DNA of 34,082 bases, taken from assembly GCA_012510855.1 (NCBI GenBank), contig JAAZHE010000207.1, positions 1-34,082 on the forward strand, read 5' to 3'. Below the pieces are notes generated by a model that saw nothing but the letters and a program-made list of their open reading frames with translations, was not told the origin of the DNA and made no database searches. Positions 23,030 to 32,179 of this stretch are shown in pieces. The translations under genes were made by a program, and so were the position numbers. The first letter of the stretch is position 1; every line of letters begins with the position of its first letter. The stretch is from Bacillota bacterium (GTDB taxonomy: Bacteria; Bacillota; Limnochordia; DTU087).

Positions 23030-24493
23030 CTAGAAATACCGCCCCACTTTGATACTTATCCGGGGCTCCTCCTGCCAATACCAATCTACTCGCCCTTGAT
23101 CCGATTTTCCCCAGGCTACCTCCCAGTAGCCCTGCTCCATCTTATGCCGCAGAGCCAGATATGTATAATTCTCACCTGGCCTTTTCTTGTAGATTATTTC
23201 TCCCTCCCACGGCATCAGCCGCTGCCGGAGGGATTTTGCTCCATCAATTTTAACTCCGCTCCTCCAACAGGCCTCTGCCGGCTGCCAGCGGATATCTGCT
23301 GTCACCATAGGATGGAGCTGGAGGCGGCTTTGAAGTTGAGCTGGGTTCTTGCCGCCCAGCCGACCGCCCAACTGAAGCCTTCTGGAGGGCCAGTTGGTAT
23401 CCCAGATAATCTCCAGGCTATCTTGACTGGAGTCCCTTTCCCAACCAAGTCCCAGTCGGTAAGTGAGTAGAGGCAACCGGCGGCGAAAGGTCAGCCCTAC
23501 TTCCGACCGCGGCTCTGTCGGTTGGAAACCCATAGCTGCCTCTCCCTCCCACCCCTTGATTTCCGGTACCGGCTGCTCAAAGCGGAGAGAAAGTCTCAGA
23601 GATTCGTTTCTGTGGCGGCTTTGGGTCAAGCGAAGGCCAAACCCCGTGACTCCCGCACCCAGGGAATCGCTATCCCCTGTTGCCAGGAGAAAACCGGGAT
23701 TGGAGCGGTAAAGATCTACCCCCCAGTTTAGGCTACCCAGCAGTCCTTCCATCCTAGATATGACCGCAAACCCTTCTAGGTCCCTACGGTATGTCCTGGT
23801 CACATCAAAGCCCGATAGTATTGCCGCTTGGCCGGAAAGCCGGAGGCCAGATCCAAAAGACCACATTCCCACCAGTGAATGTATGGTGCGTGCAGTCCGA
23901 GTAGCGTAGGGACCGGTCTTGGGATACCGCCACTGCCAGTTACTATCATGGGTAAGGTATATATATCGGTACTTTCCGCCCTTTCCCATGGGGGGCAAAG
24001 ACATATCTAGGAGAAACAGGGGGCCGTTATCTCCAGTGTTTTCGATTTCACTAACCCACAGTCCCCGGCCGCTCCAAGTCCCCAATCGCCCACTTACTTC
24101 CACTCCTCTGGCACCTTCTGCCCGCCGGGAAGATGCCAGCAGCCTGATGGGATCCAAAGTGCTGCGAAAACCGGCATTCTGGAACAGCCGAAGCTACACC
24201 TCACCGGACCTTAGCCTCAGCTGGCCCTTTGCCAGTGTGGGACTATCCTCGACTGTCTTCTCCAACTTAACCTCAAAGGCCGCCGGCAGCCTGAGCTGTC
24301 CCATCTGCCCCTGCCAGCTAACATTTTGAACAACCTCTAGCCCTGACCGATCATCCCCAATCGCCCTGGGCCACGAGAGCTCCACTTCCACTTTCCCCCT
24401 CGCCGATGCAACCTCCACGCCTATAAAGCAGCACAAGACGCCCGTTAACAGTACAGCTGAGACTGTCAGCAGCACCGTAAACGCCGGCCTCAC
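23030..24493 (-). pseudogene. Putative secreted beta-barrel-like protein interrupted by one in-frame TAG (24194-24196)
   Basis: ORFs 24194-24493 (signal peptide) and 23030-24157 are in the same frame, separated by one TAG plus 12 sense codons (GEV*LRLFQNAGFRSTLDPIRLL); whole product is beta-rich and ends ISIKVGRYF. Confidence 0.7.
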
Positions 24494-24520
24494 CCACTAT
24501 GCACTCCTTTCCGGCCGGTG

Positions 24521-28521: not shown

Positions 28522-29345
28522 TGGGCTTTCCCTCCCTTGACGGAGGCTTCTGACTGCGGCTTAAGCTGGGGCAGTTTCAAGGGGCGCTGGAGTCCTGAAT
28601 GCTGCTCAATATAATAGTTGTCCCGGTAGATTAATTCAGAAATGGGCACTATCTCATACCCCCGGGCCTTCAGCTCCGGCAGGAAATGGGCTAAGGCCTC
28701 TGCTGTATGCTTGCCGTTATTGTGCATCAGCACAATCTCGCCGGGACCCGCCTGACTTAGGATCCGATCCACGATGAACTGGGCGGAAACATCTTTCCAA
28801 TCCAGGGAATCGATACTCCACTGAATGGTATAATACCCTAGCTCTTGGGCGACCTCGATGACCTTATTGCTGTATTCTCCAAAGGGAGGGCGAAACAGAA
28901 AGGGATCGGTGCCCGTGATGGCCTTGATGTTGTTGTGATTGCGCTCAAGCTCTTGGCGGATGGCGGCTGGGCTCAGATTATTGAGATGCGGATGTGAATA
29001 AGTGTGGTTCCCGATTTCATGACCGGCAGCGACGATCTTCTTCACATATTCGGGGTATTTTTCTACCCAATAGCCCCCTAAAAAAAAGGTTGTGCGGACA
29101 TCGTTTTCTGCCAGAATCCTCAATAGCTCATCTGTGTAGTCCACTCCCCACATGGCGTCAAAGGAGATGGACATCCGCTGATCGGGGACATCCACTTTGT
29201 AGATCGGCACCAAGCGGGACGCCAGCATGGTGGACACGGTAGTGATGGCCATTTCCGACAGCCAATGCATGACGGTAAAGACCGCAAAAGCCAAGACCAC
29301 CATCACAACCTAGCTCCACGTGCCCCTAATATAGAATACCCGCAT
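28518..29345 (-). CDS. PdaB/PdaA-like polysaccharide deacetylase; predicted full frame contains an in-frame TAG at 29310-29312
   Basis: 'MSISFDAMWGVDYTDELLRIL', 'EIGNHTYSHPHL', 'LFRPPFGEYSNKV'; ATG at 29345 has SD GGAGGAGG and is in frame with the track ORF (29306) through one TAG. Confidence 0.85.
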
Positions 29346-29980: not shown

Positions 29981-32179
29981 TTATGAGCCGGCCAGCCACT
30001 GGCGGATGGAGGCTAGAGTCTCTTGGCGGGATCTAACGGTGGTGGTGCATTCGGGAATAGACCTCAGGAATGTAGCTCCATAGGATTTGGTCAGGAGCCT
30101 CGAATCACAGACAACTATGACGCCGTGATCCGAGGTCCGCCTGATGAGCCGTCCAAAGCCCTGTTTGAACCGAATCACTGCCTGAGGCAGCATATACTCG
30201 AGAAAGGAATTGCGGCCCATCTCCTCGAGGCGGCGGATGCGAGAGGCCACCACCGGGTGGTCCGGAACCTGGAAAGGCAGTTTAGTGAGAATTACACAGG
30301 ATAGAGCCTCTCCCGGTACATCAACTCCTTCCCAGAAGCTACTGGTGCCGAACAAGACCGACCTTGTATCCCTTTGGAAATGCTCCAGCAAGAGGCTCCT
30401 GGCAGCTGTTCCCTGACAGAGGGCGGTTATACCTGCCTCATCCAATGGTTCCCGGCAGTAGCTGTAGACCTCCCGCAGCAGGCGGTAGGAAGTAAATAGA
30501 ACAAAGGCGCGGCCTGCGGTAGCCAGAAGCACATCCTTCACATACTCCGCCAGGTCACTTCCGTAACAACTGGATTTTGGTTCTGGGATATCTGTTGGAA
30601 TACACAAAAGCACCTGCCGTCGGTAGTCAAAGGGAGAGGCGATGAGCTCCTCCAAGACCGGCTGTCCTAAGCAGTGATCCTGGGTGATGTCTATTTGGTC
30701 CAGACCGAGGCGCCGGCGGATGTGGCCAAACCCGCGGTCAATGGCCAGGGTCGCTGAAGTCAAAACCACCGCGGCTAGGTTCCGGTAGACTCCCTGTCTC
30801 AGCACCTCGGCCACCTCAATGGGAGCTGCATGGAGACTGGGCTCGTTTCGGTTGCCGCTCAGTTCACCCCAATAGACGTAATCCGGGGGCGGCTCCCCCA
30901 TCATAGATTCAAGGATTGTCCGACTTTGACTGAGGCGATTCTCCACAGCCCCCAGTTCAGCTTTGTACATCTCCCATTCTTCACCTTCCGCCGTACTTAG
31001 GCGGTCTTTAAGGCTTCGTAAAGCCCGCTCTAGATTCTGGAGACTCACCACAAAATCCCAGCTTTCCCGTGACAGAGCCTCCCCAAGCTGGATGCCGCCG
31101 GGGGTGGGCCAAAGGGGTGCAGCCCCCTCACCACCCCTTGCCTTAATGAGAGCTGCCGCTCCGTCGAAGAAGGTGTTGCAGGTTGTTTGGGAACGCTCCA
31201 ACGCGGGAAGTAGTTCACGGGTCAGCTCAACAACTGCTGACTCCGCCCTGGACTGCGCCGTGCCGGGGCCCTGTTCAAGCAGTGTTTGGATCTGCGGCAG
31301 CAGCCCTACTGTTCTTCCGTGCCTGGTGCGCTGCAGGCGGCCAAGGAGGCGGCTTACGCCTACCTTGCTGAGACTGAATCCAAAGTGTTCAGTAGCCACA
31401 TCTTCTACGTGATGAGCTTCATCCAGAATTACATAGCGGTACGGTGGCAGCACCGAGCGCTTGGTATCAAAACCCAACACCTGCCGAATCGCCAAATCGG
31501 CGAACAACAAATGATGGTTGACAATGATCATATCAGCTGCAAAGGCCTGGTTCCGCTCTTTAAAATAGAAGCAGTCTTGGATATACGGACAGCGGGTCCG
31601 CAGACAAACATCACTCTCGGCACAGACCTCCCACCAGGTCTCCTCACTGAGAGGAAAATCCACCTCGCTTCTAGACCCAGTCCGGCACCGGGTGAGCCAT
31701 TCCCCTAAGGCACTTAGCTCCTCTTCTCTCCAAAGACTGACTTGACCGTGCTGCCCCAGGGTTTGGAAACGGTGAAGGCAAAGATAATTGCTCCATCCCT
31801 AAATAACCGCCACCTGCAAGTCGTTGTTGATCACACTCTTCAATAACGGAACATCTTTGTTGATCAGCTGTTCTTGGAGATTGATGGTATTGGTGGAGAT
31901 AATCACCTTCTCCCCGGAAAGGGAAGTCCAGAAACTTGCCGGAATCAAATACGCTAGAGACTTACCAGTTCCCGTTCCGGCTTCAATCAAAGCAATCCTT
32001 CCCTCCCAAAGGGCCCTGGCCACCGTCTTGGCCATCAGGAGCTGCCCTGGTCTTTCTTCATAGCCGTCAAGCCGCTGGGAGATAGCTCCTCCTGGGGTGA
32101 AAACTGCCTCGATCTGGCTTTCCATCTCACGAAAGCTCAGCTTTTCTTGGCCTGCTTTGTTCCCTTCTCCACCGTTCAT
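29981..32179 (-). pseudogene. dinG: DinG/XPD-family ATP-dependent helicase interrupted by one in-frame TAG (31799-31801)
   Basis: ORFs 31799-32179 (Walker A 'EAGTGTGKSLAYLIPA') and 29981-31663 ('VILDEAHHVED', 'FGTSSFWEGVDVPGEALSCVILTKLPF') are in the same frame; the gap translates as *GWSNYLCLHRFQTLGQHGQVSLWREEELSALGEWLTRCRTGSRSE, including the conserved SNYLCL segment. Confidence 0.85.

Follow-up and report, generated by a model that had tools for sequence, protein, structure and literature searches.

An in-frame TAG in a dinG-type helicase gene of a draft Bacillota genome: probable sequence error or recent mutation rather than recoding

The dinG frame and its single TAG

The in-frame TAG inside the dinG gene of this draft genome most likely reflects an error in the sequence, or else a very young mutation, rather than recoding. 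Judging from the sequence comparisons below, its probable cause is one wrongly substituted base in the MAG consensus. Apart from the TAG, dinG is an unremarkable DinG/YoaA-type helicase gene, present in one copy and under purifying selection, and stray stops of two types (TAG and TAA) are spread over the MAG, normally essential genes included. Consensus error gains weight because the stray stops found elsewhere in the MAG are both TAA and TAG and include those in the sole thrS and in polC. These stops would have been made by wrong base calls or consensus errors where coverage is thin, and the real organism most likely still has a Lys codon at position 127 of an unbroken dinG.

The dinG frame lies on the minus strand (32179..29981) of the window, by which we mean the whole stretch of DNA analysed, 34,082 nucleotides in length. 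It has 732 codons including the TAG, encodes a DinG/YoaA-type helicase and is broken once, at codon 127 (31801..31799, minus). A sequence-only reading had described one gene split by a single in-frame TAG, and this was confirmed, as the N-terminal open reading frame (32179..31799) and the stretch after it (31798..29981) share one frame and their joined translation has 732 residues with an X at 127. The N-terminal part (31799..32179, minus) has 126 amino acids from its ATG, carries the Walker A motif (EAGTGTGKS) and ends in the TAG. The C-terminal part (29981..31798, minus), with 605 codons, a cysteine cluster, a DEAH box and Helicase_C_2, ends in a TAA. The NF005981 model is matched at positions 234-342 by the N-terminal piece, at 398-929 by the C-terminal piece and at 235-929 by the joined protein, which also matches PF00270 (on the Walker A side), PF06733 and PF13307. 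With both halves in one frame, the joined protein gave E = 3.1e-177 against NF053712 and 3.5e-158 against NF005981. Its scores were under the curated equivalog cut-offs (591 compared to 680 for YoaA, and 528 compared to 789 for NF005981) and, therefore, it is labelled DinG/YoaA-type and not as one equivalog. No other gene of this type was found in the genome.

The TAG is located 7 residues ahead of the cysteine of the NYLC motif, which we take to be the first Fe-S ligand, and a further cysteine cluster follows NYLC in the sequence. The split would thus part Walker A from the predicted Fe-S domain and the DEAH box. Were the base real, the product would be a 126-residue fragment that has Walker A, lacks the Fe-S domain and is inactive.

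Orthologues of dinG in the same genus are 74-83% identical, and all four same-genus genomes, as well as more distant relatives, are open at the TAG site. Lys had been expected at this position from family knowledge, and the alignment of homologues bore this out. Among 26 readable relatives (row L020 was left out), the residue is Lys (AAA or AAG) in 24, Met (ATG) in the congener G003 and Arg in the distant G020, and a stop at codon 127 was found in none of the 26. The Met of G003 suggests that codon 127 tolerates this residue in one congener. In the dinG matches of L014 and L018, each TAG is the final codon of the match and was rejected as an interruption. Separately, the match in a distant genome of the same class, G022 (L016, G022:C321), has a TGA at position 468.

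Compared to the nearest congener, dN/dS (NG86) was 0.14 over the 126 codons that precede the TAG and 0.11 over the 605 that follow. Values against the two nearest congeners were 0.10-0.14 on either side, resembling those of intact congener pairs. The codons after the TAG, which the sequence-only reading had taken to encode DinG-like sequence, are indeed conserved as coding, the NYLC cysteine included. The similar dN/dS on both sides suggests that the break is very recent, is an artefact, or is read through or otherwise without effect.

Stray stops elsewhere in the genome

The window comes from a 2.27-Mb MAG in 248 contigs that is 85% complete with 6.5% contamination. For a base-by-base scan of stops, 619 kb was taken, of which 588 kb, about one quarter of the genome, was readable. 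In the 588 kb, mid-gene stops besides that of dinG numbered nine (six TAG and three TAA), and the total with dinG was seven TAG, three TAA and no TGA. Two lie in the window on the minus strand. One is a TAG at 24194..24196, at a position that is Glu in three congeners. The conserved gene that holds it (about 24493..23030, some 490 amino acids) begins with a signal-peptide-like stretch, matched neither Pfam nor NCBIfam and was found in three congeners. Another TAG, at 24499, was dropped as an interruption because it lies shortly upstream of the GTG that opens the signal-peptide-like stretch. The second is a TAG at codon 12 of a pdaB-like polysaccharide deacetylase gene (29310..29312), with the Shine-Dalgarno sequence and ATG intact upstream and Lys in most relatives.

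The other stops lie on other contigs of the MAG. A TAG replaces a conserved Tyr of threonyl-tRNA synthetase (thrS; L156:4650-4652, G000:C178); one copy of thrS was found in this genome, and six relatives searched were clean. PolC is essential in Bacillota, and a TAA lies 42 codons short of the end of its gene (L198:19321-19323, G000:C33). recN has a TAG at Gln510 (L209:1963-1965, G000:C45), which is CAG in three congeners. The remaining cases are a TAG in an MtaD/TRZ-ATZ-type deaminase gene (L163:3029-3031, G000:C242), where the lost residue is presumably Glu, as in the family, a TAA in a GntR/FCD regulator gene (L226:7182-7184, G000:C62), a TAA in the gene of an oligopeptide-binding protein (L154:1813-1815, G000:C214), and, in a sugar-binding-protein-like gene (L185:860-862, G000:C20), a TAG close to the C-terminus. 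Family models span the stop in all of these except the last, whose match ends short of the TAG and which was counted from the appearance of what follows the stop.

The TAGs in the pdaB-like gene, the gene at 24493-23030 and recN were found by comparison with same-genus proteins, and that in the MtaD-type gene came from an unblinded list. In addition, 180 in-frame stop junctions were listed with the stop type hidden, and those cutting a continuous protein were picked by eye, which gave six TAG and three TAA upon unmasking. The blinding was partial, as dinG, the pdaB-like gene, the gene at 24493-23030 and recN were known and thrS, the sugar-binding-protein-like gene and the GntR/FCD regulator had been seen in earlier lists; the TAAs in polC and the oligopeptide-binding protein gene were truly unseen before unmasking. 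Stops on shadow ORFs were discarded, and only non-overlapping genes were kept. Scans for coding potential were too weak, one of them recovering just recN from four known cases. Applied to 517 kb from sister genomes, chiefly G003, this listing turned up one clear mid-gene stop, a TAG in a very large adhesin-like gene of G003 (460 + 1288 codons; L235:1383-1385, G003:C9). The counts for both the MAG and the sister sequence are approximate, having been made by one reader from picks by eye.

Given this genome's codon usage, random single substitutions are expected to give 0.48-0.51 TAG, 0.25-0.30 TAA and 0.21-0.24 TGA. The TAG share of 7/10 is, therefore, in keeping with the 0.49 or so expected by chance (binomial P about 0.16). 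If perhaps 60% of such stops were detected, the ten would correspond, very roughly, to a base error of about 0.1%, a plausible value for a MAG of thin coverage.

Among congener-invariant sites, replacements unique to this genome were enriched beside the TAGs, at 13 of 105 sites lying up to 15 codons away compared to 76 of 1799 elsewhere (p = 0.0009). In the control for clustering, unique replacements in relatives gave 0.103, compared to 0.124 near the TAGs and 0.050 otherwise in this genome. Since those of relatives cluster similarly, we regard the excess beside the TAGs (13 sites) as supporting but not strong, and it could reflect patchy constraint. That possibility was counted against error, as was the finding that none of the ABC_tran domains listed for this genome, roughly 60 of its 81, has an internal stop. 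Three of the ten stops are within one 8-kb stretch of the window, and this also counts against error because uniform error does not predict clustering.

Mutation, readthrough or restart

A very recent nonsense mutation, a consensus error and amber readthrough had been put forward as the options for the TAG by the sequence-only reading. The first of these stays as the rival to consensus error, and readthrough by pyrrolysine or a suppressor is unsupported. With a genuine nonsense mutation, the sampled strain or the dominant variant of the population would have a broken dinG and a functionless 126-aa fragment, which we consider possible though rather unlikely. One substitution is enough to turn AAG into TAG, DinG is dispensable in model bacteria, and the equal dN/dS before and after the TAG fits a young break. 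The recN, pdaB-like and transporter genes could be lost as well, but the stop in the single-copy thrS and the truncation of polC are left unexplained. Moreover, the nonsense codons come without accompanying frameshifts, none of which was found in 83 kb aligned with same-genus proteins, and this is unlike real gene decay. Of the six TAGs with a clear ancestral codon, five would require a transversion (Lys, Lys, Glu, Glu and Tyr codons) and one a transition (CAG), a spectrum more like uniform error than natural mutation.

If UAG were decoded at a useful level, through leaky termination or by a suppressor tRNA that escaped assembly, full-length DinG would be made. This first looked possible from a pattern of TAG-only interruptions among the stray stops found at the outset. 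In its favor, TAG accounts for seven of the ten mid-gene stops, with one of them in thrS, and purifying selection persists downstream. Low-dN/dS in-frame stops have also been reported in many bacteria, with readthrough argued as the cause (Belinky et al. 2021; PMC7918605). The TAG-only pattern was rejected after new TAA cases came out of the listing with hidden stop types and the TAG share was seen to fit chance. The TAA in polC and the TAG in the sole thrS take away the basis of the recoding reading.

The searches for decoding machinery likewise gave nothing. PylSn was absent from the 41 genomes searched, with the positive control found in Methanosarcina only; the best match to PylSc in this genome scored 23.6 bits compared to a cut-off of 178; and MttB, the sole methylamine methyltransferase searched, was absent from 12 genomes. 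Pyrrolysine decoding is, therefore, without support, as is loss of RF1, which is intact in this genome. ARAGORN found no CUA anticodon on the tRNA loci, using models that fit canonical tRNAs on a genome that is 85% complete. A genome-wide pattern of a CUA anticodon loop and T arm, which again fits canonical tRNAs, had 11 matches, which are other tRNAs or non-tRNAs, compared to 23 in the reversed control. A suppressor tRNA is thus without support in the assembled genome. TAG is an ordinary terminator here and is not avoided, ending 178 of 476 ORFs (37%) compared to 115 of 342 in G003. The residues lost at the in-frame TAGs are Lys, Glu, Gln and Tyr, so that decoding of UAG as any one amino acid would not bring them all back, and readthrough of UAG leaves the three TAA interruptions (polC, the oligopeptide-binding protein and the GntR/FCD regulator) unexplained. 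The missing 15% or so of the genome and the lack of a tRNA-Tyr among the tRNAs recovered favor a hidden suppressor to some degree, but altogether we find readthrough improbable. The narrower case of a lineage that carries its suppressor tRNA in the unassembled part, that is, a bacterium with ambiguous UAG and no pyrrolysine in which UAG is tolerated in essential genes such as thrS while TAG is still a common terminator, seems more improbable again.

It is scarcely credible that an active helicase forms from two proteins, the 126-aa piece and a C-terminal one made by restart, both open and conserved, as the 45 codons after the TAG contain no start codon, the earliest possible restart is the GTG at 31661..31663 (minus), the intervening codons, with the NYLC cysteine, are conserved as coding yet would go untranslated, and no relative is split at this site. 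The remark in the earlier reading that no convincing Shine-Dalgarno sequence precedes this GTG was correct, as no such run was seen upstream (...CTAGAAGCGAG-GTG).

Comparison with known systems

The biological weight of a consensus error at one base of one draft genome is small. If the stops are real, the cases in essential genes matter most, with thrS foremost. As a lesson of method, an in-frame TAG at a conserved Lys mimics recoding until stray stops are counted by type across the genome. The likeness to bacterial pyrrolysine decoding of UAG consists of an in-frame TAG inside a conserved gene, whereas here no PylSn, no PylSc over the cut-off, no MttB and no CUA tRNA were found. To our knowledge, DinG is not a known Pyl protein. 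All bacterial changes of the code known before the work of Shulgina and Eddy reassign UGA, and the same study describes false code inferences from in-frame stops in pseudogenes and from contamination (Shulgina and Eddy 2021; PMC8629427).

In-frame stops are widespread in bacterial genes and have four sources, namely annotation artefacts, sequencing errors, pseudogenes and premature stops in functional genes (Belinky et al. 2021; PMC7918605). The dinG stop shares with the stops of that study a single nonsense codon, a conserved gene and dN/dS well below 1 on both sides. In contrast, it is limited to one genome, with orthologues that have no stop at the same position and, thus, their conservation argument does not apply to it. 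Compared to the XPD-like Fe-S helicases of the DinG/YoaA type (NF005981, NF053712 and PF13307), the gene differs by its TAG at codon 127, by scores below the equivalog cut-offs and by the absence of the N-terminal exonuclease domain, but it covers the helicase part of NF005981 and is intact in its congeners.
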